Assembly (NCBI GenBank): GCA_025352265.1
Contig: JANXTS010000010.1
Coordinates: 1-64,000, forward strand
DNA: 64,000 bases
Source: Variovorax sp.
GTDB taxonomy: Bacteria > Pseudomonadota > Gammaproteobacteria > Burkholderiales > Burkholderiaceae_C
Direction: 5' to 3'
The notes beneath the pieces are model-generated. The model had not been told where the DNA came from and did no database searches. It saw only the letters and a program-made list of their open reading frames with translations. Positions 11,082-42,777 of the stretch are shown here, one piece after another. Numbering within the stretch: the first letter of the stretch is position 1; each line of letters starts with the position of its first letter. A program made the position numbers and the translations under genes.

Positions 11082-11088
11082 GCCGAAC

Positions 11089-11934
11089 ATGAATCCTTAT
11101 ATTTCCGCTGTGTCCGACGATGAACTGCATGCTTTTGTCGACGGCCAATTAGAGCTTGAACGTTGCGCCGTGATCGACGATTTACTGAAACGGGAGCCGG
11201 CTCTTGCGGCCCGCGTGACCGCGTGGAAAGTGCAGCGCGATGCGCTGCGTCAGTTGCATCTTGGCCTGCTCGACGAGCCCATGCCTGCACCGTTGCGAAG
11301 GGCGCTGGACATCCGATCGGCTCGCCAAGCAGACCGTACGGTGTGGATGCGCTGGGGTGGTATTGCTGCAGGATTTGCGATCGCCTTTGCCGCAGGCTGG
11401 CTAGTCAACGGACAGCGGGCGTTGTCGCACGGCACGTCCTTGGCAAAAGCGCCTCTGACCGGACCGGGGCCCGCGGGGGTGCTCGCGTCACGCGAATTCG
11501 TGCATGCGGCATCTGTGGCGCATGCGGTGTACGCCCCCGAAAAGCGCCATCCGGTCGAGGTCGTTGCCGCCGAGCAGCAGCATTTGGTGCTGTGGCTGTC
11601 GAAGCGGCTCGACCGTCCACTCAAGGTGCCCGATCTCTCGAGCGAAGGCTATTCGCTGGTCGGCGGTCGGTTGTTGCCAGGCGACAAAGGCGCACGCGCC
11701 CAATTCATGTTCGAGAGCGCCGCTGGCGAACGCGTGACCCTTTACATTGGTGCCCTGGAAGCTGCAGAAAGCGCTGGCACGCAACCCCGGGAAACGGCAT
11801 TTCGTTTCACATCCGATGGGCCGGTGCCCAACTTTTACTGGGTCGACCATGGTTTCGGCTATGCGGTCGCCGGCAAATTGCCGCGCGACGCCTTGATGAA
11901 ATTGGCGACGGCCACCTACCGTCAACTTTTTTAG
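11089..11934 (+). CDS. Transmembrane anti-sigma factor
   Basis: This 281-aa protein begins with a cytosolic anti-sigma domain (residues about 8-60: SDDELHAFVDGQLELERCAV). One transmembrane helix follows at about 86-104 (WGGIAAGFAIAFAAGWLV), then a periplasmic domain with KRLDRPLKVPDLSSEGYSLV and GRLLPGDKGARAQFMFES. The ZAS metal motif (H-x3-C-x2-C) is absent. The periplasmic part resembles the sensor half of FecR-unrelated anti-sigma factors that accompany short ECF sigmas in beta-proteobacteria. It presumably holds the upstream sigma at the membrane until a signal arrives. Confidence 0.85.
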   Translation: MNPYISAVSDDELHAFVDGQLELERCAVIDDLLKREPALAARVTAWKVQRDALRQLHLGLLDEPMPAPLRRALDIRSARQADRTVWMRWGGIAAGFAIAFAAGWLVNGQRALSHGTSLAKAPLTGPGPAGVLASREFVHAASVAHAVYAPEKRHPVEVVAAEQQHLVLWLSKRLDRPLKVPDLSSEGYSLVGGRLLPGDKGARAQFMFESAAGERVTLYIGALEAAESAGTQPRETAFRFTSDGPVPNFYWVDHGFGYAVAGKLPRDALMKLATATYRQLF

Positions 11935-12006
11935 GGCAATCTAGACTGGTCGCTGGCACAGCATCAATATGCCAGCGTTTTTTTGAAACCGAAGGAGAAA
12001 CTTGAT

Positions 12007-12390
12007 ATGAAACTGCTCAGCGCATCGATCCTCGCCGTCACCCTGCTTGCAGGCTGCGGAAGCATGTCCACCATGATGGCCGACACCCCGACAAAGACAT
12101 CCGACGGCGTGCTTGTCGGACCTGACGGCAAGTCGCTCTACACGTTCAATCGCGACACCGCCAACAGTGGCAAGTCAGTCTGCAATGCAGCTTGCGCCAA
12201 GCTCTGGCCGGCTCTGCCGGTGGCCGCGACGGCCAAGCCGATGGGTGGTTACACCATCGTCGTACGCGACGATGCCTCCCAGCAGTGGGCCTACAAGGGC
12301 TCGCCGCTCTACTACTACGCGAACGACGCCAAGGCGGGCGACCGCACTGGCGACAACTTCAACAATGCCTGGAAGCTCGCGCGTCCCTGA
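12007..12390 (+). CDS. COG4315-type secreted lipoprotein
   Basis: ATG 12007, with GAAGGAGAAA upstream, gives 127 aa. A lipobox (LLAGCGSM, Cys about residue 17) predicts a lipid-anchored protein. The mature part has two short repeats of the Lipoprotein_15/COG4315 family: LVGPDGKSLYTFNRDTANSG with CNAACAKLWPAL, and AYKGSPLYYYANDAKAGDRT. The family occurs widely next to ECF sigma genes but has no proven function. It follows the anti-sigma gene by 72 bp and could belong to the same regulon. Confidence 0.85.
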   Translation: MKLLSASILAVTLLAGCGSMSTMMADTPTKTSDGVLVGPDGKSLYTFNRDTANSGKSVCNAACAKLWPALPVAATAKPMGGYTIVVRDDASQQWAYKGSPLYYYANDAKAGDRTGDNFNNAWKLARP

Positions 12391-12411
12391 GCGCGTGCGC
12401 GTTTTGTCCGC

Positions 12412-12436
12412 AAGGCCGGCTTCGTGCCGGCTTTTT
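12412..12436 (+). terminator. Rho-independent terminator after the lipoprotein gene
   Basis: AAGGCCGGC-TTCGT-GCCGGCTTTTT forms a GC-rich stem with a 5-nt loop and a T tract, 20 bp after the lipoprotein stop. Confidence 0.8.
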
Positions 12437-12452
12437 CGCGACAGCCTTTTTG

Positions 12453-13310
12453 TCAACCTGCCGTGCCGCTGCGCATCGAAAGTCCGAGCCATTCGTTGCC
12501 GACCAACGCAGCGATGACGAGCATGCCGCCGGCAAGCACGCTGAAAGCGGGTTCTTCGCCAGCGCCCACCCAAGCCAATGCAATGCCGAAGATCACTTCG
12601 AGCAGTGCCAGCAGAGACAATTCCGGCGCCTTCAGCACGCGGGCGCACATTACCGAAAAAACGCAAGGGATGGCGAGCTGAACCAATCCCAGGAATGCCA
12701 GCAACCCAAGGTCGTGCGCGTTGACCTGAAAGGGCCATGCGAGCGGCAAAGTGACCAATGCGCACAGAACAGCGCCAATCAGCACCGCGGGCACCATGTC
12801 GACATCGTGCCCGGCAGCATGCGCATGCTGCGTGACGGTCCAGTTGCCGGCTGCGGCGAGAGGCACGCACAACGCGACCAGTGTGCCGAGCAGTTGTTCG
12901 CCAACGCCTGAAAACTCCGATCCGTACATCCAGCCGACGCCGATGCCGGCTACGACGATTGCGATCCAGGTGCGCATCGCAAGCCGATGCCCGATGAACA
13001 AACGAGCCGCGAGGGCGGTGAACAAAGGCGCCAGCGCCATCGTCACCAAGACGTTTGCGACGCTGGTCAACGTGAGCGCGACCATGTAAGCCGTGAACAT
13101 CACACTCCAGCAGATGCCCGAAATCCAGAGGGAACGGTCGCCTCGCCGAATCGTCGCGAACAGCGCCCGCCCTCGCCAGGTCGGCAAGATCACGAGCAAC
13201 GACAGCACGGTAAAAGACGCGCGCCAGAAAGTTACCTCGAAGCTGCGCGCATGCTCCAGGTGGCGCGTCACGACCCCTGCGCTGGCCCACATCAGCGTGA
13301 CGAGGACCAT
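12453..13310 (-). CDS. EamA/DMT-family transporter
   Basis: This 285-aa inner-membrane protein has about ten hydrophobic segments arranged as two EamA repeats, opening LMWASAGVVTRHLEHARSFE and with SLLALLEVIFGIALAWVGAG in the second repeat, where the LEPV/LE-x-x-FG motif is typical. Such proteins export metabolites or amino acids; the substrate cannot be read from sequence. ATG 13310 follows an open stretch without another good start. It is convergent with the lipoprotein gene, and typA ends 116 bp upstream. Confidence 0.85.
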   Translation of the reverse strand: MVLVTLMWASAGVVTRHLEHARSFEVTFWRASFTVLSLLVILPTWRGRALFATIRRGDRSLWISGICWSVMFTAYMVALTLTSVANVLVTMALAPLFTALAARLFIGHRLAMRTWIAIVVAGIGVGWMYGSEFSGVGEQLLGTLVALCVPLAAAGNWTVTQHAHAAGHDVDMVPAVLIGAVLCALVTLPLAWPFQVNAHDLGLLAFLGLVQLAIPCVFSVMCARVLKAPELSLLALLEVIFGIALAWVGAGEEPAFSVLAGGMLVIAALVGNEWLGLSMRSGTAG

Positions 13311-13425
13311 GAGCCAAACGGCGCGTACGCGGCTCAGGTGACCCGCGGTCGTCGCCCGCGCCTCATCACCCGTCCCTTAGTCGCCCGTCGACTCAAATTC
13401 ACGGTCGTCGAAAGCCAACGGCTTC

Positions 13426-15252
13426 TTAGTCGCGGCTTGCGCGCTTACGCTCGTGTTCCTTCAGGAACCGCTTGCGCAGCCGGACGCTTTTCGGAGTGAT
13501 TTCGACCAGCTCGTCGTCCTCGATGAACTCGACGCCGTATTCGAGCGTGAGTTCGATCGGCGGCGTGACCTTGATGGCATCTTCCTTGCCGGAGACGCGG
13601 AAGTTGGTGAGCTGCTTGGTACGGGTGGCGTTGACCACCAGATCGTTGTCGCGGCTGTGGATACCGACGATCATTCCTTCGTACACCGGATCATTGGCAC
13701 GCACGAACATGCGGCCACGGTCGTCCAGCTTGCCCAAGGCGTAGGTGAAGATTTCACCGTCGTCCATAGAAATCAGCACACCTTGTTTCCGGCCGCCGAT
13801 ATCGCCTTTGTGCGGTTCATAGCTATCGAAGATGTTGCTGATGAGGCCCGATCCTCGCGTCAAGTTCAGAAATTCGTTGGTAAAGCCGATGAGTCCGCGG
13901 GCCGGAATGCGGTACTCCAAACGAACACGGCCGCGGCCGTCCGATTCCATATTGGCGAGATCGCCCTTGCGTTCACCCATGGCTTGCATGACGCCACCCT
14001 GGTGCTGCTCTTCGACATCGATGGTCACCATTTCAATCGGCTCGTGACGTACGCCGTCGACATCCTTGAACACCACGCGCGGCTTCGAAACAGCAAGCTC
14101 GTAGCCTTCGCGGCGCATGTTCTCAAGCAGGATCGTCAGGTGCAATTCGCCGCGGCCCATGACTTCGAAAATGCCTTCTTCGCCTGTTTCGTTCACGCGC
14201 AACGCTACGTTGTGCTGCAGCTCCTTTTGCAGGCGATCCCAGATCTGGCGGCTGGTAATGTATTTGCCTTCACGGCCGGCGAGCGGGCTCGTGTTGACGC
14301 AGAAATTCATCGTCAGCGTCGGCTCGTCTACCTTGAGCATCGGCAACGGCGCCGGGCTGATCGCATCCGTCACTGTCACGCCAATGCCGATGTCGGTCAG
14401 GCCGTTGATCAGGACGATTTCGCCCGGGCCGGCTTCGGTCGCCTGCACGCGTTCGAGGCCCTGGAAAGTCAGAACCTGGTTGACACGACCCTTTACGACC
14501 TTGCCGTCGGGACCTTCCATGACCACCACGTCCATCATTGGGCGGACCGTGCCCTGACTGATGCGGCCCACGCCGATGCGACCCACGAAAGTGGAAAAGT
14601 CGAGCGCCGAAATTTGCAATTGCAGCGGTGCATCCGGATCGCCCTTTTGCGCCGGCACATGTTGTAGAACGGTGTTGAACAGGGCAGACATGTCTGGACC
14701 CCATTGCTCCCCCGCCTCGCCTTCTTCCATAGACGACCAGCCATTGATTCCCGAGGCGTACACCACGGGAAAATCAAGCTGCTCGTCGGTTGCGCCGAGT
14801 TTGTCGAAGAGATCGAAGGCAGCGTTGACCACGAAGTCAGGACGCGCGCCCGGCTTGTCTACCTTGTTCACCACGAGGATGGGCTTCAGGCCCAGGGCAA
14901 GCGCTTTCTTAGTGACGAAACGCGTTTGCGGCATCGGGCCCTCTTGGGCATCGATGAGCAGCACCACACCATCCACCATACTGAGCGCGCGTTCCACTTC
15001 GCCGCCAAAGTCGGCGTGGCCGGGAGTGTCGACGATGTTGATGTGCGTTCCCTCCCATGTCACTGCGCAATTTTTGGCCAAGATCGTGATGCCACGTTCT
15101 TTTTCGATGGCGTTGTTGTCCATCACCGTGTCGACCACCTTCTCGTGCTCGGCAAAGGTGCCGGACTGGCGCAGCAACTGGTCGACCATCGTGGTCTTGC
15201 CATGGTCAACGTGGGCGATGATGGCGATGTTGCGGATTTGCTTGATGCTCAT
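13426..15252 (-). CDS. typA: Translational GTPase TypA/BipA
   Basis: This 608-aa ribosome-associated GTPase is involved in 50S assembly and stress adaptation. The G1 box AHVDHGKTT starts near residue 13; also seen are KERGITI (switch), DTPGHADFGG (G3), NKVDKPGARPD (G4) and YASGINGW (G5). Domains resembling EF-G II and V and the BipA-specific C-terminal domain (DDELVEITPKSVRLRKRFL) follow. The start overlaps the truB stop by 4 bp, making it the last gene of the rimP-nusA-infB-rbfA-truB-typA operon. Confidence 0.98.
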   Translation of the reverse strand: MSIKQIRNIAIIAHVDHGKTTMVDQLLRQSGTFAEHEKVVDTVMDNNAIEKERGITILAKNCAVTWEGTHINIVDTPGHADFGGEVERALSMVDGVVLLIDAQEGPMPQTRFVTKKALALGLKPILVVNKVDKPGARPDFVVNAAFDLFDKLGATDEQLDFPVVYASGINGWSSMEEGEAGEQWGPDMSALFNTVLQHVPAQKGDPDAPLQLQISALDFSTFVGRIGVGRISQGTVRPMMDVVVMEGPDGKVVKGRVNQVLTFQGLERVQATEAGPGEIVLINGLTDIGIGVTVTDAISPAPLPMLKVDEPTLTMNFCVNTSPLAGREGKYITSRQIWDRLQKELQHNVALRVNETGEEGIFEVMGRGELHLTILLENMRREGYELAVSKPRVVFKDVDGVRHEPIEMVTIDVEEQHQGGVMQAMGERKGDLANMESDGRGRVRLEYRIPARGLIGFTNEFLNLTRGSGLISNIFDSYEPHKGDIGGRKQGVLISMDDGEIFTYALGKLDDRGRMFVRANDPVYEGMIVGIHSRDNDLVVNATRTKQLTNFRVSGKEDAIKVTPPIELTLEYGVEFIEDDELVEITPKSVRLRKRFLKEHERKRASRD

Positions 15253-16229
15253 GATGTCGTTTCGCAGAAAAAATGGGGAACGGGGGCGTTCGAAAGGATT
15301 TGCTGGATTTCGATGGGGTTCAGCAAACGCCCCGGAATCAATTCATTGGCCAGGATGTGGGCAGAGCCCAAAAAAGTCGATGGCTCGGGGCCGAACACGG
15401 CCACTTCGGCGGCATCGGCCCAAGTGCCGCGCCGGCGCAGGCCGGACAGGAACCGCGCTGCATCTTCGGCGCCCAACGTGACGCGGCTGTGGCCTGCGAC
15501 GAGAGACTCGGTCGGCAGCAACAGCGCGTTCCGTTCCTCCTCGACCATGGCTTCGAGCGTCTCGAGTGTCACGCATTGCGAAACGTCGAAATCACCAGTC
15601 GCAGTGCGGCGCAACGCGGTGAGATGCGCGCCGCAACCAAGTGCTTCGCCGATATCTTCACCGAGCGTGCGAATGTAGGTACCTTTGCTGACGGTCGCTG
15701 CGATTTTTAACGCTCGACCCGGTCCGACGTCGGACGTCTCTCTGATCGAAAGCTGGTGGATGACGATATCGCGCGGCGCGCGCTCGATCTCGATGCCTTC
15801 GCGTGCGTACTCGTACAAGGCTTTGCCATCCCGCTTCAACGCGCTGTACATCGGCGGAATCTGCTGGATCGACCCGGTGAACTGGGACTGAACGCGACAC
15901 AAGTCTTCGGCCGTGAACTGAACAACACGCTCAGAGACCACTGCTCCTTCGGCATCGCCGGTCGACGTCTTCACGCCAAGTCGGGCGGTCGCTTCATAGG
16001 TCTTGTCGGCCTCTAGGTGCAGTTGACTGAACTTTGTCGCCGCACCGAAGCACAACGGCAGTACACCAGTTGCCAGCGGGTCGAGCGTACCGGTGTGTCC
16101 GGCCTTTTCGGCGCGCAACAACCACTTTGCCCGCTGCAATGCTTGGTTGCTCGAAAGGCCGAAAGGTTTGTCGAGCAACAACACCCCATGCACGGGGCGC
16201 CGCTGCACCCTGGTGCGAGGGGCGTTCAT
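15249..16229 (-). CDS. truB: tRNA pseudouridine(55) synthase
   Basis: TruB makes pseudouridine 55 in the T loop of tRNAs. The 326-aa protein has GVLLLDKPFGLSSNQAL and the catalytic motif GHTGTLDPLATG with Asp50. YEATARLGVKTSTGDAEG and RTLGEDIGEALGCGAHLTAL are further family motifs, and a PUA-like C-terminal domain follows. It lies 2 bp after rbfA. Confidence 0.97.
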   Translation of the reverse strand: MNAPRTRVQRRPVHGVLLLDKPFGLSSNQALQRAKWLLRAEKAGHTGTLDPLATGVLPLCFGAATKFSQLHLEADKTYEATARLGVKTSTGDAEGAVVSERVVQFTAEDLCRVQSQFTGSIQQIPPMYSALKRDGKALYEYAREGIEIERAPRDIVIHQLSIRETSDVGPGRALKIAATVSKGTYIRTLGEDIGEALGCGAHLTALRRTATGDFDVSQCVTLETLEAMVEEERNALLLPTESLVAGHSRVTLGAEDAARFLSGLRRRGTWADAAEVAVFGPEPSTFLGSAHILANELIPGRLLNPIEIQQILSNAPVPHFFCETTS

Positions 16230-16231
16230 GG

Positions 16232-16603
16232 CTACTCGTCCTTGGAGCGCGAGGCAACGGCCTGTGCGATCAACGCATTCATGTCGGCTGCACGCTCAGT
16301 CGTGCGGTCGAACAGGAAGTGCAGCGTTGGCACGGTATGGATGTGGAGTCGCTTGAACAAACCATTCCGGAGGAAACCGGCTGCCTGGTTCAATGCCTCG
16401 GTGGTTTCGGGTATGTCGCCTGTGAGCACGCTGAAGAAAATCTTGGCGTGCGCATAGTCGGGCGTGACCTCGACTCCCTGAATCGTGACCATGCCCACGC
16501 GCGGGTCCTTCAAGTCGCGCGCGATCAGTTCCGTCAGATCGCGCTGGATCTGATCGGCAACCTTGAACGAACGGTTGGGGGCTGCAGCTTTTCTCTTGGG
16601 CAT
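16232..16603 (-). CDS. rbfA: Ribosome-binding factor A
   Basis: RbfA is a KH-fold factor that matures the 5' end of 16S rRNA in the 30S subunit. The 123-aa protein has [40 protein letters not shown] and [19 protein letters not shown], all typical. It sits 21 bp after infB in the operon. Confidence 0.96.
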
Positions 16604-16624
16604 GGCCAGATTCGCTTGAACGCT

Positions 16625-19522
16625 TTACAGCGTCCGGGCGATTTCCTTGATCTCGAAGAACTCCAGCTGATCACCTTCTTTGATGTCGTTGTAGTTCTTG
16701 AGCTTGATACCGCACTCGAAGCCTTCCTTGACTTCGCGCACATCGTCTTTCATGCGCTTGATCGAGTCGACTTCGCCGGTGTAGACCACAACGTTTTCGC
16801 GCAGGAGGCGGAAATGTGCGCTGCGGTTGACCGAACCCGAGGTGACCATACAGCCTGCGACCGTGCCGATCTTGGAGGCGACGAATACCGTACGGATCTC
16901 AGCCGAGCCGATGATCTCTTCGCGGCGTTCCGGCGCCAACATGCCGGACATCGCGACCTTGATCTCGTCCACAGCGTCGTAGATGATGCTGTAGTAGTTC
17001 AGCTGCACGCCATTGTTCTCGGCCAGCTTGCGCGCACCGGAGTCGGCCCGCACATTGAAGCCGATGACGACCGCCTTCGATGCGATGGCGAGGTTGATGT
17101 CGTTCTCGCTGATACCGCCGACACCGGCGTAGACGATCTGCACCTTGACTTCTTCGGTCGCCAGCTTGAGCAGCGATTGCGCCAAAGCTTCTTGGGAACC
17201 CTGAACGTCGGCCTTGATGATCAAGCGCAGTGTCTGCACCTCGCCTGCGGACAGGTCCGTGAACATGTTCTGCAAGTTTGAGGCCTGCAAGCGTGCCAGC
17301 TTGGTGTTGCGGAACTTGCCCGCACGGTAGGTTGCAATTTCACGCGCACGTCGCTCGTCGGCCATCACCATGAACTCGTCGCCCGCTTGCGGCACTTCGG
17401 TCAAGCCCTGGATCTCGACCGGAATCGATGGACCCGCGGTCTTGATCGTCTTGCCGTCTTCGTCAACCATGGCGCGCACGCGGCCATAGGTCGAGCCGGC
17501 TAGCACCACATCGCCAGTCTTCAGCGTACCGGATTGAACCAGCACCGTCGCGACAGGGCCACGGCCCTTGTCGAGGCGCGCTTCGATGACCAGACCCTTG
17601 GCCGCCGCATCGACGGGCGCCCTGAGTTCCAGCACTTCAGCCTGCAGCAGCACCTGTTCGAGCAATTCGTCCACGCCCTGCCCTGTCTTGGCCGAGACGG
17701 AGATGAAAGGCACTTCGCCGCCGTACTCTTCGGGCACGACTTCTTCGGCCACCAGTTCCTGCTTGACGCGGTCCAGGTTGGCATCGGACTTGTCGATCTT
17801 GTTGATCGCGACCACGATCGGAACACCGGCAGCTTTCGCATGCTTGATGGCTTCCTTGGTCTGCGGCATGACGCCGTCGTCCGCCGCCACCACGAGGATG
17901 ACGATGTCGGTGGCCTGTGCCCCACGGGCTCGCATGGCGGTGAACGCCTCGTGACCCGGGGTGTCAAGGAACGACACCATGCCGCGATCGGTTTGCACAT
18001 GGTAGGCCCCGATGTGCTGCGTGATACCGCCGGCTTCGCCTGCGGCGACCTTGGCACGGCGGATGTAGTCCAGCAGCGAGGTCTTGCCGTGGTCGACGTG
18101 ACCCATGACGGTCACTACCGGTGCGCGCGGCAACGATTCAGCGGTTTGTGCGGCTGCGTCGTCGTCGGTGAAGGCTTCCGGATCGTCCAGTGCCGCCACC
18201 ATCGCGTTGTGACCCATGTCTTCCACGATCACCATCGCGGTGTCCTGGTCGAGCGACTGGTTCATGGTCGCCATGATCCCGGCCTTCATCAACTGCTTGA
18301 TGACTTCCTGGGCCTTGACGGCCATCTTGTGCGCGAGCTCGGCTACCGTAATGGTTTCCGGTACGTGCACATCGAGCACGCGCGCCTCGACCGGTGCGGC
18401 CTGTTGCTGCTCTTCGTGGCCGCCACGGTCGTTGCTGCCACGGCGACCGCGCGGGCCTCCGCGCCAATTGCCGCGACCGACGCCACCGCTTGCATCGCCG
18501 CGGGTCTTGATTTCTTTCTTCTTGGCAGGATCGCCAGCCCAACTCGATGAGAGCTTGGCGGACTTGACGTCCTTGGTGGCGCCGGGCGCAGTGCTGCCGG
18601 GCGCTGCAGGCGCACCTGGGCGTGCCGCGGGCGTGGCCGGCTTGTGCAATGTGCCTTTAACGGCAGGCTTGATCTCTGGCGCCGGCTTTTCGGGCGCTTT
18701 GTGTGGCACGAGCACGCGAGCGGGTGCATTCATCATCGCGCGGATGGCTTCGGCTTCAGCCAGCGCCTTGCGGCGACGCTCGTCCAGATCCTTGGCGCGC
18801 GCGGATTCTTCGTCGGCACGGGCTTTCGAGTCGGCAGCAGCCTTGGCCTTGGCGTCTTCCTTGGCTTGCGCCAAGGTTGCGTCGGCTGCCGCCTTGGTGG
18901 CAGCAGCGCTCGTCGCTTCTTCGGTCACCGCAGTCTTGCTGGAAGCGCCTTCAGTCGCGACCGCTGGCACCGCAGCCGCCTTCTTTTCGGCAGCGCGAGC
19001 TTCCTGTTCGGCCTTTTCAGCCCGTTCAGCGTGTTCACGCTCGCGTGCTTCGCTTTCCTCACGAATGCGGCGCTTTTCGACCAGTTCTTCTTCCTGGCGA
19101 CGAATCAGCTCAGCCTGACGGCGCGCCTCTTCTTCGCGGCGAGCAAGTTCGGCTTCGTCGATACGTGGTGCGGCAGGGACCTCGGCCTCGTGCATCGGCT
19201 CGGACACCGCGGTCGGACCCTCATCGCGCTGGATGAAGGTGCGCTTCTTGCGTACTTCGACCTGGATCGTGCGGGCGCGCCCCATCGCGTCGGCCTGCTT
19301 GATTTCGCTGGTCGATTTCTTGGTGAGCGTAATTTTCTTGCGCTCGGGCTCGGCCGTGCCGTGGCTGGCCTTCAGGAAACCGAGCAAGCGCTGCTTGTCG
19401 GCCTCCGTGAGCGCATCGGTTGGCGCGGCTTTGGGCACGCCTGCGCTCTTGAGCTGGTCAAGCAAGGTTTCGGGAGTCTTCTTGAGCTCGTTCGCGAACT
19501 CGGCGACAGTGGTACTGGACAT
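16625..19522 (-). CDS. infB: Translation initiation factor IF-2
   Basis: IF-2 places initiator tRNA on the 30S subunit. At 965 aa it is a long form. The IF2_N domain ([20 protein letters not shown]) is followed by a long Ala/Glu/Lys coiled region (about residues 120-260). A second N-domain ([20 protein letters not shown]) precedes the GTPase domain, which has [14 protein letters not shown] near residue 470, [15 protein letters not shown] and NKIDKSDAN. The C-terminal domains end [17 protein letters not shown]. It lies 24 bp downstream of nusA. Confidence 0.98.
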
Positions 19523-19546
19523 ATTGGTTTCGTGCCTTCATGACCG

Positions 19547-21031
19547 TCACTCTTGGCCAGCGAACCAATGTTCGCGGGCTTTCAAGATGAGGGTCGTGGC
19601 GTCAGCGGCGCTGTGGCCGGTGATCTCGGTAAGTTCATCGACCGCAAGGTCGGCCAGGTCGTCACGGGTGTGGACACCCGCCTCGGCCAGTTTGGGAATC
19701 AGCTCAGGGTCCAGGCCTTCGAGGTCGCGCAAATTTTGCGATACGGTCTCGACGCCCTCTTCCTTGGCGATTTCCATGGTGAGTAGCGCGTCTTTGGCAC
19801 GCGTTCGCAACTCATTGATCGTGTCTTCGTCGAAGCTTTCGATCTCCAGCAATTCGGAGATCGGCACGTAGGCCACTTCTTCGAGACTGTTGAAGCCTTC
19901 AGAGATCAGGATGTCGGCCATTTCCTCGTCGACATCGAGCTTTTCCATGAAGAGCTTGCGGCTCGCATCGGTTTCGACGGCTTGCTTTTGAGCAGACTCG
20001 TTGGCGTCCATGATATTGATCTTCCAGCCGGTCAGGTCGGAAGCCAGGCGCACGTTTTGGCCACCACGGCCGATGGCGATCGCGAGGTTCTCTTCGTCGA
20101 CGACCACGTCCATCGCGTGCTTTTCTTCATCGACCACGATCGACGAGACATTCGCCGGAGCCAACGCACCGATCACGAACTGCGCTGGATCTTCGGACCA
20201 CAACACGATATCGACCCGCTCGCCAGCCAGCTCGTTGGTGACCGCGTTGACACGCGTGCCGCGCACGCCGACACAGGTGCCGATCGGGTCGACGCGCTTG
20301 TCATGCGAAAGCACCGCTATCTTGGCGCGCGAACCCGGATCACGGGCGCAACTCTTGATTTCAAGCAGACCTTGCTCGATCTCGGGCACTTCTTGGCGGA
20401 ACAGCTCGATCATGAATTCCGGCGCCGAACGCGACAGGATGATCGGCGCGCCGCGCAGCGTCAGGTCGACCTCCATGATCATGGCGCGCACACGGTCGCC
20501 ATTACGCAGGTTCTCCTTGGCGATCATTTCACTACGGCGCAGACGTCCTTCGACGCGCCCGGCCTCGACGATGATGTCGCCCTTGTCGAGCCGCTTGACC
20601 GTACCAACGAAAATCTTGTCGCCGCGCGACATGAAATCGTTGAGCAACATCTCACGCTCGGCGTCGCGGATCTTTTGCAGGATGACTTGTTTAGCCGCCA
20701 TCGCGCCGATCCGGCCGATCGGCACCGAATCCACCGTTTCTTCGATGTACTCGTCGACCTCGATGTCGGGCATCTCTTCCTTGGCTTCGAAAAGGAGGAT
20801 TTCCTGGTCGGGCAGCTGCAGGCCGGCTTCGTCCGGAACGACATGCCAGCGGCGGAAGGTTTCGTAGTCGCCGCTGTCGCGGTCAACGACCACGCGGATG
20901 TCCACATCACCCTGATGGAGCTTTTTGGTAGCCTGCGCCAGCGCAGACTCCACCGCGCCGAAGACGACGTCACGTTCAACGTTCTTCTCGCGCGAGATCG
21001 CATCTACCAACATCAACATTTCGCGATTCAT
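19547..21031 (-). CDS. nusA: Transcription termination/antitermination protein NusA
   Basis: NusA binds RNA polymerase and nascent RNA to modulate pausing and termination. The 494-aa protein has the N-terminal polymerase-binding domain ([20 protein letters not shown]), an S1 domain ([20 protein letters not shown]), KH domains ([38 protein letters not shown]) and two acidic C-terminal repeats ([19 protein letters not shown]). It overlaps the rimP stop by 4 bp. Confidence 0.98.
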
Positions 21032-30391: not shown

Positions 30392-30662
30392 TCAGGGCGA
30401 GATGCCCTGCTTTGGCTTCGCTTCGATGTCTTCGATCACGGGCTGCAAGTCGGCCACGCTGTCGATCTTGCTTCGCTGCATCGAGTGCCCGCCACTCAGC
30501 CATCGACAGACCGATCGCGTTGCCAATGACAGACAGCCCTACCGGCCAAGTGCCTGCGTTGACGCCCTCCTCGATGCCGACACCGGTGTCGTCGACCTTG
30601 ACCACGCTCAACGGCGGCCACACGCCGATGTCGGCGAAGTCGGCGACAACTGCAGCGTTCAT
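30392..30662 (-). pseudogene. phnX: Remnant of phosphonoacetaldehyde hydrolase (phnX), deleted and frameshifted
   Basis: In one minus-strand frame VVKVDDTGVGIEEGVNAGTW and IGNAIGLSMAEWRALDAA match the C-terminal half of PhnX, the HAD enzyme that splits phosphonoacetaldehyde. Immediately after, the last residues appear in another frame as IDSVADLQPVIEDIEA... ending at TGA 30392. About 25 residues are missing between the two. The N-terminal half with the catalytic nucleophile and lysine is gone. The 185-aa ORF in the track that covers this stretch is not a gene. Confidence 0.8.
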
Positions 30663-30691
30663 CTGTGCGAAGAAGCTTTTTCGAATGCCCC

Positions 30692-30751
30692 TCAGCCGAC
30701 GGCGCACACCATACCGAACACTCCAACCATCAGGGACTTTGCCAACTTCAT
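30692..30751 (-). pseudogene. Signal-peptide stub of a probable phosphonate binding protein
   Basis: ATG 30751 opens a 19-residue ORF, MKLAKSLMVGVFGMVCAVG, then TGA. It reads as the first part of an export signal with no mature protein. In intact phosphonate loci a 2-aminoethylphosphonate binding protein often starts a divergent operon that ends in phnX. The stub beside the phnX tail suggests that most of that operon was deleted. The identity as a phosphonate binding protein is inferred from context. Confidence 0.5.
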
Positions 30752-30917
30752 TTGAGAGGCTCGTGGATCGAAAAGAAAATCGAAACCGGACTCTGCCGGA
30801 CCGCAACGACATATTCGCGACACGAAGACAAAACAAAATCGTGGCCCACTCAGAGACTTCATCTGCTGTCATTTGTAACTTGTAGACAGTCGCGAATGAC
30901 GGTCATACCAATCGGCC
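30752..30917. promoter_or_regulatory. Former divergent control region of the phosphonate locus
   Basis: These 166 bp separate the binding-protein stub from the GntR-type gene. The stretch is AT-richer than its surroundings and should contain the two divergent promoters. No clear consensus boxes could be assigned by eye. Confidence 0.35.
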
Positions 30918-31526
30918 ATGGTCAAGAAGATATCCAGCAGTCCCACCATCGCACAGCTTCAGGGGAATGCTCTGGCGAATCTGGTTCAGGTCGAAATCGA
31001 ACGCATGATTTTGGACGGCGCGCTGCCATCAGGCGCCAAACTCACTGAAACCACATTGGCCGAGCAACTCGGCGTTTCCCGGCCCGGTGGGCAAAGCTTT
31101 TCGCATGCTCGAAGAAGCGGAACTGGTTCGCACCAGCTCTCCGACGCGATGGACCAGACCGTAAAAGGCGACAACGCCCACGACTCTCACCGCTTCGAAC
31201 TGAAGTTTCATGATCGATTGCTAGAGCTGGCGGGCAACTCCAAGCTGACCGCGACCTACCGCAAGCTGGTCAATGAACTTTCGCTGTTTCGACGCCAGAA
31301 TCTCACTCACGAATCGATGACGGTCTACTCGCGGGAATATCGGCTGATCGTGAAGACCGTCGCCGCACGCGAGCCCGAAGCGGCCGGCCAGGCCATGTAC
31401 CAGCATGTGATGAACAGTCGCGAGCGCACCCTGCGCAATGACAAGGCCAAGCGTGCGGAGACATTGAAGGCGGCCGCGCTTGCCGCCGTCAATACGGTCC
31501 AATCGAACGCTGGCGTGGAGGCCTGA
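30918..31526 (+). pseudogene. Phosphonate-type GntR regulator with frameshift and internal deletion
   Basis: The N-terminus (SPTIAQLQGNALANLVQVEI, then LPSGAKLTETTLAEQLGVSR) and the C-terminus (FHDRLLELAGNSKLTATYRK, LVNELSLFRRQN) are those of the GntR regulator associated with phosphonate utilisation (FCD type). After GVSR the frame shifts: the expected GPVGKAFRMLEEAELVRT lies in another frame near 31084-31140. About 50 residues between LVRT and the DAMDQTVKGDNAHD segment are missing, which restores the frame. The 202-aa ORF therefore survives but lacks the recognition helix end, the wing and the start of the effector domain. It is probably non-functional. Confidence 0.82.
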
Positions 31527-31528
31527 CC

Positions 31529-32077
31529 ATGGCGCTGACTCTTGAAGACATCGAGACCTTGTTTGACCGCCACGGCGGCGCGCAATATAGCGGTGAGCCC
31601 GTGACGCAACTGGCGCACGCGCTGCAGAGCGCCTACCTTGCGGAGCAAGCCGGTGCCGACGACGAGTTGGTCACGGCGGCCTTGTTGCACGACCTCGGCC
31701 ACTTGCTCAACGACCAGGGCGAGACGCCGAGCCTGCGCGGTGTCGACGACCTGCACCAATACTTCGCACTGCCCTTTCTTCGCGGTGTCTTCGGTGAGCG
31801 CGTGCTGTGCGCGATCAAGTGGCATGTCGATGCCAAGCGTTACTTGTGCGCGACGCGACCCGCGTATTGGGGCAGCCTTTCGGACGACTCCAAGCGCAGC
31901 CTGGAGTTGCAGGGCGGCATCTTTTCGGCGGAGCAAGCTGCTCAGTTCATCGGGCAAGAGAACGCGGCCGAAGCGGTGCAGTTGCGACTCTGGGACGACC
32001 AGGCGAAATCTGCAGACATGGTCACGCCGCCGCTGGCGCATTACCTTGCACGCGCTCGTCGCTGCATGCCTCATTGA
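31529..32077 (+). CDS. PhnZ-like HD-domain oxygenase of phosphonate degradation
   Basis: This 182-aa protein belongs to the HDIG family found in phosphonate operons, whose characterised member PhnZ is a mixed-valent di-iron oxygenase cleaving 2-amino-1-hydroxyethylphosphonate. It keeps the iron ligands (H30, H54-D55 in LLHDLGH, H58, H76, H99, D157). It also keeps the Tyr20/Glu23 pair of QYSGEPVTQ that gates the iron site in PhnZ. It starts 2 nt after the broken GntR gene. No PhnY-type hydroxylase partner is in the window. It looks intact although its neighbours are decayed. Confidence 0.85.
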   Translation: MALTLEDIETLFDRHGGAQYSGEPVTQLAHALQSAYLAEQAGADDELVTAALLHDLGHLLNDQGETPSLRGVDDLHQYFALPFLRGVFGERVLCAIKWHVDAKRYLCATRPAYWGSLSDDSKRSLELQGGIFSAEQAAQFIGQENAAEAVQLRLWDDQAKSADMVTPPLAHYLARARRCMPH

Positions 32078-32112
32078 GCGCCATCTGCACCATGGTCGTA
32101 GAAGGCGGCGTG

Positions 32113-36020: not shown

Positions 36021-36110
36021 GGAGCGGTGGATGAGCGGTTTAAGTCGCACGCCTGGAAAGCGTGTGAGGGTTAATACCCTCCGCGGGTTCGAATCCCGCC
36101 TGCTCCGCCA
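36021..36110 (+). tRNA. tRNA-Ser (anticodon GGA)
   Basis: The 90-nt sequence folds as a class II tRNA: acceptor GGAGCGG/CTGCTCC-type pairing, a D arm, the anticodon arm CACGCCTGGAAAGCGTG with GGA, a long variable arm (AGGGTTAATACCCTC) and GGGTTCGAATCCC as T arm, with CCA encoded. It reads UCC and UCU serine codons. Its 3' end borders a prophage remnant, a usual insertion position. Confidence 0.97.
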
Positions 36111-36123
36111 GATGACTAGTAAC

Positions 36124-36146
36124 GACGCCCCTTTCGGGGCGTTTTT
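36124..36146 (+). terminator. Terminator after tRNA-Ser
   Basis: ACGCCCC-TTT-CGGGGCGT followed by TTTTTG lies 14 bp after the tRNA. Confidence 0.85.
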
Positions 36147-36177
36147 GCTTTTCTACCCCCCTTGTTACCCTCCTTAG

Positions 36178-36642
36178 TTAAAAGAGGCGCTGCCGCTCAA
36201 ATTCGACGTCGCTCACGTCTTGTAGCGCCTGCGTGATCTCGCCAGAGTTTTGCGCCAAGGCCACGAGGCCTGCGTAGTAACCAAGCGAACGCCACGCACG
36301 CAGCGTGGTGCTGTCGACTGGCTCCAACGAAACCGCATCAACGGCACGCTGTTCCGCCACCGCAATCTCGCCAGCGCGGATCATTGCTGCCTCATGCGCC
36401 GCGGCTTTGGTCACATCCGCGAACTGTTGGCTTGATCCATCATCTTCGTCGTCCTCACTCGGCCCGATGATTCGCACGCCGAAGCGCGCCACCATCTCAT
36501 GCGCCGGGGCGCCTCCCTCGCGAACCGCCGGCCAGACGATCGCGCTGAAATACACATGCCCCATGCGGCTGATCACCTCCCACTCGAGGAGCAGCGGCTG
36601 CAGCCCGTACTTCGAAACGTGCAGTATTTGAATTGTTGGCAT
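36178..36642 (-). CDS. Hypothetical protein of the prophage remnant
   Basis: ATG 36642 gives 154 aa beginning MPTIQILHVSKYGLQPLLLE; the track start at 36654 adds four residues and neither has a clear ribosome site. There are no membrane segments or signal peptide. An acidic stretch (PSEDDEDDGSS) divides two parts. No family is recognised. It is the most tRNA-proximal gene of the remnant, on the minus strand like the rest. Confidence 0.6.
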   Translation of the reverse strand: MPTIQILHVSKYGLQPLLLEWEVISRMGHVYFSAIVWPAVREGGAPAHEMVARFGVRIIGPSEDDEDDGSSQQFADVTKAAAHEAAMIRAGEIAVAEQRAVDAVSLEPVDSTTLRAWRSLGYYAGLVALAQNSGEITQALQDVSDVEFERQRLF

Positions 36643-36654
36643 AACAAAATCCAA

Positions 36655-36690
36655 TTAAAAAAAAAGCCCGGCCGGTGTGCCGGGCTGTGA
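36655..36690 (-). terminator. Terminator downstream of the 50-aa gene
   Basis: On the minus strand AGCCCGGC-ACACC-GGCCGGGCT is followed by a run of ten T residues. The 36178-36642 gene begins almost directly after it. Confidence 0.85.
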
Positions 36691-36705
36691 GTTGCTATCG
36701 ATCGA

Positions 36706-36858
36706 TCAGCGCTTACCGGTCGACTTGACCTTCTGCGTCAGCACACTGGCGGCGACCGTGCGCACTGGCTTCGGTGTCGACGGATTGCTTAGCAACTTGC
36801 TGGCGATGGTGGCCACGCGCGCTGACGTGGTTTCGTTGGGTTTCTCAGCGGAAGACAT
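36706..36858 (-). CDS. Small (50-aa) hypothetical protein, too short for the track
   Basis: ATG 36858 opens MSSAEKPNETTSARVATIAS and ends TQKVKSTGKR with TGA at 36706. The core KLLSNPSTPKPVRTVAASVL reads as one helix pair, and the VATIASKLLSN / VRTVAASVLTQ halves look like a duplicated short unit. A strong terminator follows directly. Small proteins with this pattern occur in prophages; the function is unknown. Confidence 0.6.
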   Translation of the reverse strand: MSSAEKPNETTSARVATIASKLLSNPSTPKPVRTVAASVLTQKVKSTGKR

Positions 36859-37020
36859 ATAATTGAGGGCTGGTAAAAGATGGAAGGGGTATTAGCCCCA
36901 TCCCGGTTTCACACCGCTCCGGCCCTCACGCAGTTCGCCCGTCGAAAAGATGGACTGTCGAGGGTCTTTTTCATTTGGGGCAGGCGCCGGCGGCGGTGGC
37001 AACCTGTCCGCTGATTCATC

Positions 37021-37590
37021 TCATGATGACGGGCTCTCGGCAGTTGACGCATGCTCGACGTCGATGCTCGGAAAGTCGAGCGACTCCATACTCCATCCCT
37101 TGGAGCGACTGGCCATGATCTTGGGTGCGGCCGACAGGATCTGCACGAGACGGTGCGTCGGGTTCCTGACGCCAGTGAAGTCGACGGCCTGCGCCGTGAG
37201 TTCAGCAAAAATTTCGATTGTCGACATGTAGCGCCCGTCGCGAAGCAGCCGGTAGACACGCTGTTGTATGTCGGCTCGCCACTCGCGCCGCGTCGGGGCT
37301 TCCGAAGTAAAGGTCATGACCTGAGTGGCAGGAAGCGCCATCTGAGCCGAGAAGATTTCGGCGGTCAGATCGTCCGGCGTCGCTGCGTGTGCGAGCGCGG
37401 CGAGCTCCATCTCCACCATGGCCAGTTTGCTCTTGACCGCGTCGCGCATCCCATTAACTTCGTCTCGCAAGGCTTCTACACGCACGCATTCGTGTTCCAC
37501 ACGGGCAAGCTCTCGATGCATGTTAGCGGCGAGCAGAAGCAGGGCTTCGCGGTAAAGGGTCGGGTTTGTCACAGAGCAAATGTAACTCAT
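37021..37590 (-). CDS. Hypothetical prophage protein with coiled-coil N-terminus
   Basis: From ATG 37590 the protein has 189 aa. Residues about 15-70 (ELARVEHECVRVEALRDEVN) are heptad-like. The C-terminal part (RVYRLLRDGRYMSTIEIFAE then FTGVRNPTHRLVQILSAAPK) looks like a small winged helix, so a DNA-binding regulator is possible. An upstream ATG at 37629 is an alternative start. No family name can be given. Confidence 0.55.
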   Translation of the reverse strand: MSYICSVTNPTLYREALLLLAANMHRELARVEHECVRVEALRDEVNGMRDAVKSKLAMVEMELAALAHAATPDDLTAEIFSAQMALPATQVMTFTSEAPTRREWRADIQQRVYRLLRDGRYMSTIEIFAELTAQAVDFTGVRNPTHRLVQILSAAPKIMASRSKGWSMESLDFPSIDVEHASTAESPSS

Positions 37591-37641
37591 ATTTGTCCCG
37601 GAGACGAGAGAGATATTCCCTCTTTGCATTTTCCCGCAGAT

Positions 37642-37878
37642 TTATTGCTGTGCGCCCGTACAGATGTGTCTAGTTTCAGGGAAGGTCCGCAACACGCTGG
37701 CCGGCACCGGCACAAGGTGATGCCCGAAAACGAACTCGCCAACCAGCGGGCGGCTCGCATCCTTGAAGCGCCACGCCAGCCCATCGGGCTCGGTCACCGT
37801 CAGGTACGCGCCGATGTTGGCTTCGCAGCCCTTGACCTCGCCAACGACGATGCAGATGTCGCCTGATTTGATTGACAT
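37642..37878 (-). CDS. Small hypothetical prophage protein (beta-rich)
   Basis: ATG 37878 with GGAG upstream gives 78 aa beginning MSIKSGDICIVVGEVKGCEA. The pattern of short strands with LTVTEPDGLAWRFKDASRPL and VPVPASVLRTFP is typical of small SH3-like barrel proteins in Burkholderiales prophages. The track version starts 17 codons earlier. No function is known. Confidence 0.6.
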   Translation of the reverse strand: MSIKSGDICIVVGEVKGCEANIGAYLTVTEPDGLAWRFKDASRPLVGEFVFGHHLVPVPASVLRTFPETRHICTGAQQ

Positions 37879-37968
37879 GGTGTGCTCCGGAAAAAGTGGT
37901 TTAAGAGCACGCAGTTTCTGCGTCGACACGCACTGAACAGGCAGTACCCGACTCGCGTGAGGTTACGT

Positions 37969-38046
37969 TTCTGCGCAAGGTTTTGCGCGTCTGCGCAAGG
38001 CGATGTCCAGCGCTCAGCGACGATCGCTTGCGCGTTTGCGCAAGGC
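37969..38046. repeat. Repeated TGCGCAAGG motifs, probable operator region
   Basis: CTGCGCAAGG occurs at 37971-37980 and 37991-38000, exactly 20 bp apart, and TTGCGCAAGG at 38036-38045. CGCTTGCGC at 38026-38034 is an inverted partial copy. The core TTGCGCAA is palindromic. The cluster sits in the 213-bp gap between two minus-strand prophage genes and looks like repressor operators. Confidence 0.55.
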
Positions 38047-38091
38047 GGTCGCGAAACTATTCTTCTTGACTATCGACGTGCCGGCGGCTAG

Positions 38092-38313
38092 CTATCTGGT
38101 CGCCGCCCACTCAGGCAGCTCATCAGCTTTCGCACTGGCTGAAGCGCGTCGTGCTGGCCGATCGCTGCGGCGGGCATCTTTGATGCCGTCTCGCACGCCC
38201 CACCGAATCACGAGATACAGGACGTATAGGCCGATCAACGTGCCGATGACAGATAGCACCATGCCTGCGAAAAATAGCTTCGTCATCTCGATCTGGAAAT
38301 CGTGCACGCTCAT
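38092..38313 (-). CDS. Small membrane protein of the prophage remnant
   Basis: This 73-aa protein has one clear membrane helix (FFAGMVLSVIGTLIGLYVLY, about residues 14-34) and a basic cytosolic tail (GIKDARRSDRPARRA). Small proteins of this type precede or follow tail genes in Burkholderiales prophages. The function is unknown. Confidence 0.65.
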   Translation of the reverse strand: MSVHDFQIEMTKLFFAGMVLSVIGTLIGLYVLYLVIRWGVRDGIKDARRSDRPARRASASAKADELPEWAATR

Positions 38314-38370
38314 GGCCTACCTTTCAGCACCGTTGATTGGATTGAGCGAGATTTTGAGCCAACGCGGCTC

Positions 38371-39258
38371 TCATTGCGCAGTCGCTGCTCCGGCTTCAAG
38401 CTGGCGAAATATCCCAGTCAGTGCATCGCGGTCGCCACCACTCGCGAGATTGACGGCCGTCTGCCTACCGCCGATGTTGATAGTCAACGTCTTGTTGTCC
38501 GATGGGCCGGCCTTCTGCCCATCCGCTCGTCGCTTGTCACCGGCTGCAACGCGTCGCGCTTGATCGAGTGCGTTAGTCGTCGCAGCAAGCATGCCCTGCG
38601 TGTCGCGGATGGCCTCAGGTGACACCAAGCCCGCGGTGCCTGCGCTGGTGGCGCTGATGAACTGTGCCGCGTCGCGCGCTTGCTTGTGCGCCTCTTCGAG
38701 CATGGGGATGTCGGCGGCCGTGTACTTGGTCTTGTCAACGCCGTTGGCTACCGCCTTCGCCTTGTCGAGCGGTACGGTGTTCGTGAACGTGCCCACCGGC
38801 GCGCCGCTGTTGCGCGTTCGCTCGACGCCGAAGCTATCGAGGAACGTGCTGCCGCTGCGGTCGCTCGGTCCGTCGGGTCGATCGTTGCCATCCTCGCCAC
38901 GCTTGCCGCTGTACTTCGGCCCGTTCGAATCGCCCGGCGATGACACGTTGCCGTTGTAGTTGTTGCCATCGAGGCCAGGCTGCGGCTTCACGTTGCGAAG
39001 CGAATCGAGCAGCTTGTCGACGCCGTCTTTGCCAACACCCATCGATGTAGCGATCGAAGTGCCCGTGGCCTGCCCGATGATCTGCATACGCACCATCTCG
39101 CGTTGCACTGCGATCTCCGATGTCTCGACGCCGTGGTTTGATTCGGTGGCTGCCTGCGAATAGGCTTGGAACGCCTTGACCTTGTCGGCCAGGCTGGTCG
39201 TCGTGCTGTCGCGGATCAGATCCCACGATGCCGCGAAGCGCGTTGCGGTGGCCTGCAT
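38371..39258 (-). pseudogene. Phage tail tape-measure protein, C-terminal fragment
   Basis: The 295-aa ORF lacks the long coiled coil and membrane segments expected of a tape-measure protein (usually over 700 aa). It contains KVKAFQAYSQAATESNHGVE, a low-complexity Gly/Asn/Asp linker (NYNGNVSSPGDSNGPKYSGK) and the end KTLTINIGGRQTAVNLASGG, which matches tape-measure C-termini. An in-frame TGA lies four codons before the ATG, and chromosomal sequence follows at about 39268. The gene is therefore cut at its 5' end. Confidence 0.75.
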
Positions 39259-39286
39259 CTCTTCAGGTCATTCCAAAAACCTGCTG

Positions 39287-39331: not shown

Positions 39332-39955
39332 CTAGTGGTATTGCGCCATGAAATTTGCCAACGCGCGCAGTTGGTCGTCCGCCAGCGGATACACCACATC
39401 GGCCATGGCGGCCACACCGCCGCCGGTCCTCTTGCCCGCCTTGAAGTCGCGCAGCGCTTTGAGCAAATAGTCTTCGCGCTGATTGGCCGTTCGCGGCGCT
39501 GCCTGAGCGCCCGAGTAGTCTTCCTTGTGACACGAGGCGCAACGATTTTGCTGCGCAAGCTTCAGGCCGACTGTGTACATCGCCTGGTCTCCCGAGGCGG
39601 TGGCGCGGGGCGGTGGCACCATCGATGCGAAGTGCTTCGACAAAACTCGTACGTCGTCGTCGGTCAGGCTTGCCGCCAGCGGTTGCATCACCGCGGACTT
39701 GCGTGTGCCGCTCCTGAAGTAAACGAGCTGCCACTGCAGAAAACTCTCCGGCTGACCCGCGAGCGACGGCGTTTCCGGCATCTGCGAAACGCCCGTCGCG
39801 CCGTGGCAAGCGATGCATGTTTCCGCCTTGGCCAACGCGGCAGGCAAGTCAGCGGCTTGGGCCATGCCGCTCGAAATGCCCGTGGCCAGACTTGCAAGTC
39901 CAAGCACCATCCGCCAGCGCGTAGCCCACAACCGCATCCGCGCAATCACACCCAT
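39332..39955 (-). CDS. Di-haem cytochrome c
   Basis: This 207-aa periplasmic protein has a signal peptide (about residues 1-34, LASLATGISSGMAQAA). Two haem-binding motifs are present: CIACH near residue 47 and CASCH near residue 139, each followed by the methionine region of cytochrome c4-like folds. It starts 32 bp after the sugar dehydrogenase gene on the same strand and could accept its electrons. Confidence 0.9.
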   Translation of the reverse strand: MGVIARMRLWATRWRMVLGLASLATGISSGMAQAADLPAALAKAETCIACHGATGVSQMPETPSLAGQPESFLQWQLVYFRSGTRKSAVMQPLAASLTDDDVRVLSKHFASMVPPPRATASGDQAMYTVGLKLAQQNRCASCHKEDYSGAQAAPRTANQREDYLLKALRDFKAGKRTGGGVAAMADVVYPLADDQLRALANFMAQYH

Positions 39956-39987: not shown

Positions 39988-41265
39988 TTATTTGCCGTAG
40001 CTGATGCGGTACACCGCGCCAGCCCAGTCGTCCGCGACCAGCAGAGACCCGTCGGCCGCCACCACCACGTCGGCCGGCCTGCCGCTGTAGGCCTGGTCAC
40101 CCGTGATCCAGCCGGTGGCAAAAGTCTGCTGCTTGATCTTCTTTCCTTGCGGATCGGTCGTGACGCGCACGATTTCGCCGCCCCTGTACTTGTGACGGTT
40201 CCACGAGCCGTGGTTAGCGATGAAGATGTTATTGGCGTACTCGGTCGGGAACTGCTTACCTGTGTAGAACTTCATTCCCAAAGGCGCGACGTGCGCGCCG
40301 AGCTTCAGGGCCGGCGGAGTGAACTCGGAGCACTTGTGGCCCATCGCGTACTTTGGGTCGGGCATGTCGCCCTGATGGCAATACGGGTAGCCGTAGTGCG
40401 CGCCGATCTGCTTCACATGGTTGAGTTTGTCGCTGGGCATGTCGTCGCTGACCCAGTCGCGCGCATTTTCGGTAAACCAGTAGTCACCGGTGCGAGGATC
40501 GATGTCGCCGCCCACACTGTTGCGCACGCCGATGGCGACCATTTCCGCCTCGCCCGTTGCCGGGTTGATACGCCGCACCTGCGACAGGCTCGTCGGCGGC
40601 AAGCACACGTTGCACGGTGGGCCGAAGGGCACATAGAGCCAGCCCTGCTTGTCGAAGGTCAGGTACTTCCAGCCATGAGCCGCATAGGCCGGCATGTCGT
40701 TGTAGACGACCTTGCCTTCAGGCATCTTGTCGAGGTTGGCCTCGGCGTTTTCGTACTTCAGGATCTTGTCGATATCGACCACGTAAAGGGAGCCATCCCG
40801 AAAGGCGACGCCCGTCGGCATCTTCAGGCCAGTAATGATCGGCTTCACGGTCTTGCCGTTGTCCGTGATCGCATAAACAGTGCCCACGCCGAACGAGCCG
40901 ACGAAAAGCGTGCCCTTGTCGCCCCACGCCATCTGGCGCGCGCTGTTCACGCCGGCTGCATACACGTTGATCTTGAAACCCTTCGGCAACTTGATTGCCT
41001 TCAGGTTCTTTTCGAGGTCGGCCATCGATGCCGGCAAGGCCGGACCGGATGGCGGCGCAAGGCCCTTTTGGGATTGGGTTTCGTCGCCTAGGAATCAGTC
41101 GGCGGGTGGGTGTTCCCAAAAGTCTTTCTTGGTGGAGTCGTAGCTCTTGACCGCTTGAGCCTGGGCGGCCGGCAGCATGAAAAGCGCGGCACACGCGCTC
41201 GCCACACTGACTATGGCACCCAGCCTTAGCGGCCGAGCGACGACACCCGTCACTGATTTGCGCAT
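39988..41265 (-). pseudogene. PQQ-dependent sugar (sorbosone-type) dehydrogenase, split by an in-frame TGA
   Basis: ATG 41265 with AGGAG upstream opens a signal peptide (VASACAALFMLPAAQAQA) and SYDSTKKDFWEHPPAD, then TGA at 41095-41097. In the same frame translation would continue FLGDETQSQKGLAPPSGPAL into the 349-residue domain of the track. That domain has beta-propeller motifs such as RQMAWGDKGTLFVGSFGVGT and HGWKYLTFDKQGWLYVPFGP. One base change of TGA to TGG (Trp) would restore a 425-aa protein. Without it the catalytic domain is made, if at all, without an export signal. The family oxidises sugars in the periplasm with PQQ. Confidence 0.8.
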
Positions 41266-41425: not shown

Positions 41426-42640
41426 TCAGCGAACGACAGCGATCTGTTCGCGCTTGCCGGCCTTGTATGTGTACAGGGTCAGTGCGCCGTTCTTGATGTC
41501 GCCCTTTTCGTCGAAAGCGATCGGGCCGGTCACGCCCTTGTAGTTGGTCTTGCCAACTTCAGGGAGGTACTTTTCCGGGTCCGCCGAACCGGCACGAACC
41601 ATGGCGTCGGCCAGAATTTCGACGGCGTCGTAGACGTACGGTGCATAGATCTGCACTTCGACGCCGTTCTTGGCCTTGAAGTCGGCCTTGAACTTTTCCA
41701 GAGGCGCCTTGAAGTCGCCGTCCACACCACCGGCTTCAGCGCAAACCACCATGTCTTCACCAATGGCATCGCCGGCCAACTTGGCCAGTTCGCCGGTGCA
41801 CAGGCCGTCACCGCCCATGAACTTGACGGTCATGCCAAGCTGCTTGACCTGCTTGAGCATCGGGCCGGCAACCGCATCCATGCCACCGAAGAACAACACG
41901 TCGGGCTTGGTGCCCTTGAGCTTAGTCAGGATGGCGTTGAAGTCGGTGGACTTGTCGGTTGTGAACTCATGACCGACGATGGTGCCGCCTGCGGCCTTTG
42001 CTGCCTTCTCGAACTCTTCAGCGACGCCCTGGCCGTATGCGGTGCGGTCGTCGATCACGGCAATGCTCTTGCCCTTCAGCGTTTCGACTGCGTACTTGCC
42101 AAGCGTGCCGCCGAGTTGCGTGTCGTCAGCCACCACGCGGAACGTGGTCTTGAAGCCTTGACGCGTGTACTTGGGGTTGGTTGCCGATGGCGAGATTTGC
42201 GGAATGCCAGCGTCGCTGTACAGCTTCGAAGCCGGGATGGTGGTGCCCGAATTCAAGTGACCAACGATGCCGTTAACCTTGGCGTCGACCAGCTTTTGCG
42301 CCACTGCGGTGCCTTGCTTCGGATCGCCAGCGTCGTCTTCTGCGAGCAGTTCGAATTTGGCAACCTTGTCGCCGATCTTCAGATTGCGCGAGTTCAAATC
42401 TTCGATGGCCATCTTGGCGCCGAACTCGTTGTCCTTGCCCAAGTGAGCGATCGGGCCGCTGGTCGGGCCGACGTGACCGATCTTGACGATCAGAGCGTCG
42501 GCAGGAGGTGCTGCAGCAGGCGCGGCGGCGGTGGTGGCCGCCGGTGCAGCGGCGGGGGCGGCAGCTTCTTCCTTTTTGCCGCAAGCCACTAGCGTCAGCG
42601 CAGCCATCGCGACCGCAGTCACAGTCCATTTCAATTGCAT
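41426..42640 (-). CDS. Branched-chain amino-acid ABC transporter binding lipoprotein (Leu/Ile/Val type)
   Basis: From ATG 42640 (GGAGG upstream) the protein has 404 aa. A lipobox (LTLVACGKK) predicts a lipid anchor, followed by an Ala/Pro-rich linker. The Peripla_BP_6 domain has KIGHVGPTSGPIAHLGKDNE, GHLNSGTTIPASKLYSDAGI and QISPSATNPKYTRQG, typical of LivJ/LivK. No permease or ATPase genes are adjacent, so it serves a transporter encoded elsewhere. The track start is six codons too far upstream. Confidence 0.92.
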   Translation of the reverse strand: MQLKWTVTAVAMAALTLVACGKKEEAAAPAAAPAATTAAAPAAAPPADALIVKIGHVGPTSGPIAHLGKDNEFGAKMAIEDLNSRNLKIGDKVAKFELLAEDDAGDPKQGTAVAQKLVDAKVNGIVGHLNSGTTIPASKLYSDAGIPQISPSATNPKYTRQGFKTTFRVVADDTQLGGTLGKYAVETLKGKSIAVIDDRTAYGQGVAEEFEKAAKAAGGTIVGHEFTTDKSTDFNAILTKLKGTKPDVLFFGGMDAVAGPMLKQVKQLGMTVKFMGGDGLCTGELAKLAGDAIGEDMVVCAEAGGVDGDFKAPLEKFKADFKAKNGVEVQIYAPYVYDAVEILADAMVRAGSADPEKYLPEVGKTNYKGVTGPIAFDEKGDIKNGALTLYTYKAGKREQIAVVR

Positions 42641-42777
42641 GGGAAACCTCCAGAACATTGATGAAGAATTAAGTAAAAACCGGTCTTTCGATCCGGGCGG
42701 AAATTCCGAACAATTTGTTCAGCAAGTTTCGCGCCGCAGACCGGGGACGCCCCTGCGCCAGCCGACCCGGCGGCAGT

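Follow-up and report, generated by a model that had tools for sequence, protein, structure and literature searches.

A gene for an exported sugar-dehydrogenase-like protein is interrupted in the window, a 64,000-nucleotide stretch of a Variovorax sp. genome, by one in-frame TGA at the conserved residue Trp57; the stop is probably the result of a single TGG-to-TGA mutation that occurred very recently. In the nearest relative, a genome of the same genus (G026), the full-length and intact orthologue carries a sense codon, TGG, at this site, which supports the nonsense reading. Everything in the gene but the TGA looks like a working gene, as it also would if the stop were a sequence error.

The interrupted reading frame

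The frame runs on the minus strand from an ATG at 41265 to a TAA at 39990..39988 and comprises 425 codons plus the TAA (MRKSV...FWEHPPAD*FLGDETQSQKG...RISYGK*; Table 1). The TGA at 41097..41095 is the sole interruption of this otherwise open frame (41265..39991), and the frame is open on either side of it; the stop is thus in frame with both flanks, as the initial annotation had stated. Chance does not explain the frame, since both flanks align over their full length with the orthologue in G026 (97% protein identity, on one contig, no internal stop) and 79% of the nucleotide differences between the two lie at third codon positions. Judged by eye from the translation, the signal peptide ends at about residue 36–38 with an AQA motif. 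The annotation had the TGA separating this signal peptide from the dehydrogenase domain, which needs one correction: some 19 residues of the mature N-terminal tail precede the TGA, and the model has its first propeller strand only at about residue 97.

Table 1. Features of the interrupted gene and its cytochrome neighbour (window coordinates)
Feature	Coordinates	Strand	Evidence
Interrupted frame, GSDH/sorbosone-dehydrogenase-like beta-propeller protein	39988..41265	-	Translation; Pfam GSDH PF07995; full-length G026 orthologue
Signal peptide, codons ~1–38, AQA motif at end	41152..41265	-	Translation, by eye
In-frame TGA, codon 57; Trp (TGG) in 80/81 orthologues	41095..41097	-	Translation; orthologue alignment
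Open frame 3' of the TGA: mature N-terminal tail and complete beta-propeller, constrained	39991..41094	-	dN/dS against G026; AlphaFold; Foldseek
First in-frame ATG past the TGA, codon 81	41023..41025	-	Sequence
In-frame TTG past the TGA, codon 77	41037..41035	-	Sequence
Next gene downstream, intact, encoding a diheme c-type cytochrome (likely electron acceptor)	39332..39955	-	Pfam Cytochrom_C and Cytochrome_CBB3

The Pfam profile GSDH (PF07995) matches the translation through its C-terminal part (4.9e-13; 49.5 bits, where the family cut-off is 25). An AlphaFold model, built by reading through the stop, is a beta-propeller (pLDDT 83.7, pTM 0.84), and its best Foldseek matches are AA12, pyranose dehydrogenase, and sGDH structures, with E values down to 5e-21 and TM scores of 0.59–0.68 by query length. 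The fold is shared with the PQQ domain of AA12/pyranose dehydrogenase (6h7t, 6jt5) and with soluble PQQ glucose dehydrogenase (1qbi, 1cq1), and an HGSWNR motif is common to 6jt5 and the product of the interrupted gene; identity, however, is only about 15–21%. From the fold and the weak family similarity we infer that PQQ would be the cofactor. What also sets the gene apart from the GSDH/sorbosone dehydrogenase family (PF07995) and its solved members is its pairing with a diheme cytochrome c encoded by a gene of its own. In all 23 loci checked, the orthologue is followed by a frame with two CxxCH motifs. The two proteins likely act together in the periplasm, where a sugar or a related compound would be oxidized and the electrons passed to the cytochrome. 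The window genome also holds a paralogue at 45% identity on contig C3, in addition to more distant ones.

Translation from 41265 would normally end at the TGA and yield a 56-residue peptide, made up of the signal peptide and some 19 further residues, while the propeller domain would not be made, or would be made at a low level from weak internal starts. Inspection of the sequence upstream of the TTG at 41037 and the ATG at 41025 revealed no recognizable ribosome-binding site before either. A product of an internal start would lack the signal peptide and would stay in the cytoplasm, apart from its periplasmic cytochrome partner. Because the internal starts have no clear ribosome-binding site and their product no signal peptide, periplasmic loss of function is likely; both the export and the activity of the enzyme would presumably be lost, a reasonable expectation that the initial annotation had already voiced.

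Codon 57 in relatives

In a survey of 102 genomes of the genus, the orthologue was found in two, the window genome and G026. A scan of species genomes added 80 further orthologues, from Rhizobacter, Ramlibacter, other Burkholderiales MAGs, Bradyrhizobium, Rhodopseudomonas, Tardiphaga, and Acetobacteraceae, bringing the set above 60% identity, with G026, to 81; a plasmid search returned only distant relatives below 60% identity. The codon equivalent to codon 57 is TGG in 80 of these 81 orthologues and TGT (Cys) in the remaining one, the surrounding DWFLGDE motif is nearly invariant, and among the matches listed by the genome searches no orthologue other than that of the window has an internal stop. 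The initial annotation had proposed a single TGG-to-TGA change and suggested comparing the Trp position in homologues; both G026 and the wider set bear the proposal out. It had also named a condition under which the reading would fall, namely that homologues naturally start at the downstream methionine, which is not the case: the relatives carry an N-terminal tail that runs through the Trp. A natural downstream start is thereby ruled out and the TGG-to-TGA change becomes the plain reading; on these alignments, it is the right reading of the stop.

The orthologue with TGT belongs to a Rhizobacter MAG (L042, 3113-3115; L174 is the same stretch). It and the window gene are the only two without Trp at this near-invariant site; they are independent departures at one codon, probably by coincidence.

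Selection past the stop and the reality of the base

Comparison of the whole gene with that of G026 gave a dS of 0.447, a dN of 0.015, and a dN/dS of 0.033, in line with the flanking genes (dN/dS 0.013–0.104). The segments past the TGA have dN/dS values of 0–0.03 (about 0.02) and no frameshift. When outgroups are used to place the amino-acid changes past the TGA, the window lineage receives about 4 (alignment columns 163, 289, 290, and 345) and the G026 lineage 2 (columns 159 and 376). If this part of the gene had been unconstrained since the split with G026, about 190 nonsynonymous changes would be expected, as obtained from about 842 nonsynonymous sites past the TGA and a synonymous divergence of about 0.22 per lineage, equal rates being assumed. 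By this estimate, the gene would have been free of selection for at most roughly 5% of the time since the split, or the TGA is not real. Strong purifying selection past the TGA, without a frameshift, thus means that the stop is either very recent or an assembly error.

Under the latter reading, the draft assembly has one wrong base, or its consensus took up a minority variant, and the gene is intact in the organism; this is the less likely of the two. It would account for the undiminished selection past the TGA and for a single isolated base in a gene without any other lesion, and the assembly is indeed a draft of 108 contigs; on the other hand, the compared genes are not riddled with stops or frameshifts and base quality seems good. 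Substitution errors in a well-covered consensus are, moreover, rare. When 204 genes from three stretches were compared with G026 and the flags inspected by eye, the codon-57 TGA alone proved to be a clean stop in the interior of a conserved frame; the many other flags were antisense frames, over-long N-terminal extensions, or positions near the C-terminus. With a single clean interior stop in 204 genes, the assembly is not generally poor and there is no general gene decay in the three stretches. The TGA base is probably real.

Strong constraint past the TGA is also what one would see if the stop were leaky or translation restarted downstream, so that a useful full-length or cytoplasmic protein was kept, and the in-frame ATG and TTG both precede the first propeller strand. 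Yet neither candidate start has a clear ribosome-binding site, a cytoplasmic product would miss its periplasmic partner, no relative shares the stop, and its recency explains the constraint equally well; we regard such a retained function as improbable. A very recent nonsense mutation remains the preferred reading. The gene resembles bacterial single-stop nonsense pseudogenes in having one in-frame stop, an otherwise intact and conserved frame, and full-length orthologues in relatives; nothing distinguishes it from them, and it is so young that further decay is not visible. Most likely, an accessory gene has been hit by a single nonsense mutation of an ordinary sort. The gene is rare, being present in 2/102 genomes of the genus, and with its probably very young stop it illustrates early gene loss and nothing more. 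Annotations should flag the gene as interrupted, and until the base has been checked it should not be claimed that the strain has this periplasmic oxidation step.

Alignment columns 39–64 around the TGA are unusually divergent from G026, at third positions only, and the TGA is one such change. Positions 41076-41152 are rich in third-position differences, in contrast to about 100 nearly identical bases at 40970-41075; this is possibly a recombination boundary.

Selenocysteine, suppression, and the genetic code

The window genome encodes selenocysteine machinery, so that a selenocysteine reading of the UGA needed testing. It has selB (460 bits), tRNA-Sec (80 bits), and fdhA with an in-frame TGA; these lie in a cluster on contig C31 at 11015-20504 (L170, L186), where the tRNA-Sec gene (C31:11015-11106) adjoins selB and the formate dehydrogenase alpha gene with the internal TGA is nearby. 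Despite this machinery and the Cys codon (TGT) at the codon-57 site of one orthologue, it is very improbable that the UGA is read as selenocysteine to give a new selenoprotein. In bacterial SECIS elements the apical loop is small and contains a conserved G, and a survey of them demanded Cys in more than half of the homologues (PMC1088965). The RNA 3' of the window UGA can form a hairpin with a 10-nt apical loop, AAUCCCAAAA, which contains no G, whereas the fdhA RNA 3' of its UGA has a GUC apical loop; the RNA of the TGG orthologue adopts the same hairpin fold as the window RNA, and over a longer piece of the latter the folding is no better than in shuffled sequences (z -0.59). No SECIS-like small loop with the conserved G is thus found 3' of the window TGA. 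The homologues have Trp rather than Cys (80/81 against 1/81), and residue 57 lies in the N-terminal tail, outside the propeller. The interrupted gene resembles fdhA of the same genome in having an in-frame TGA where selenocysteine machinery is present, but it differs from FdhA and other bacterial selenoproteins in its lack of a G-containing small apical loop and in its Trp-bearing homologues.

Typing of the 41 tRNA loci found showed that the only TCA anticodon is that of tRNA-Sec and that the only tRNA-Trp has the anticodon CCA; a suppressor tRNA is absent from this set. A changed genetic code is ruled out, since TGA serves as the normal stop of neighbouring genes (such as that at 41426..42658) and the other nine Trp codons of the interrupted frame are all TGG. 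There is also a slim chance, about as small as that of a new selenoprotein, that the new UGA is decoded now and then in this host with its SelB and tRNA-Sec, either as selenocysteine or by near-cognate Trp readthrough, so that some enzyme is kept; if true, the site would have begun to change from a Trp codon into a recoded one.

Locus differences from the nearest relative

A segment of about 3.1 kb at 36111-39263, whose open reading frames have no Pfam match, is present in the window and absent in G026. It lies directly 3' of tRNA-Ser(GGA) (36021-36110), ends just before the cytochrome gene, and may reflect either an insertion here, associated with the tRNA gene, or a loss from G026. Synteny with G026 is also broken at 30639-32091, where G026 has about 6 kb of extra DNA.
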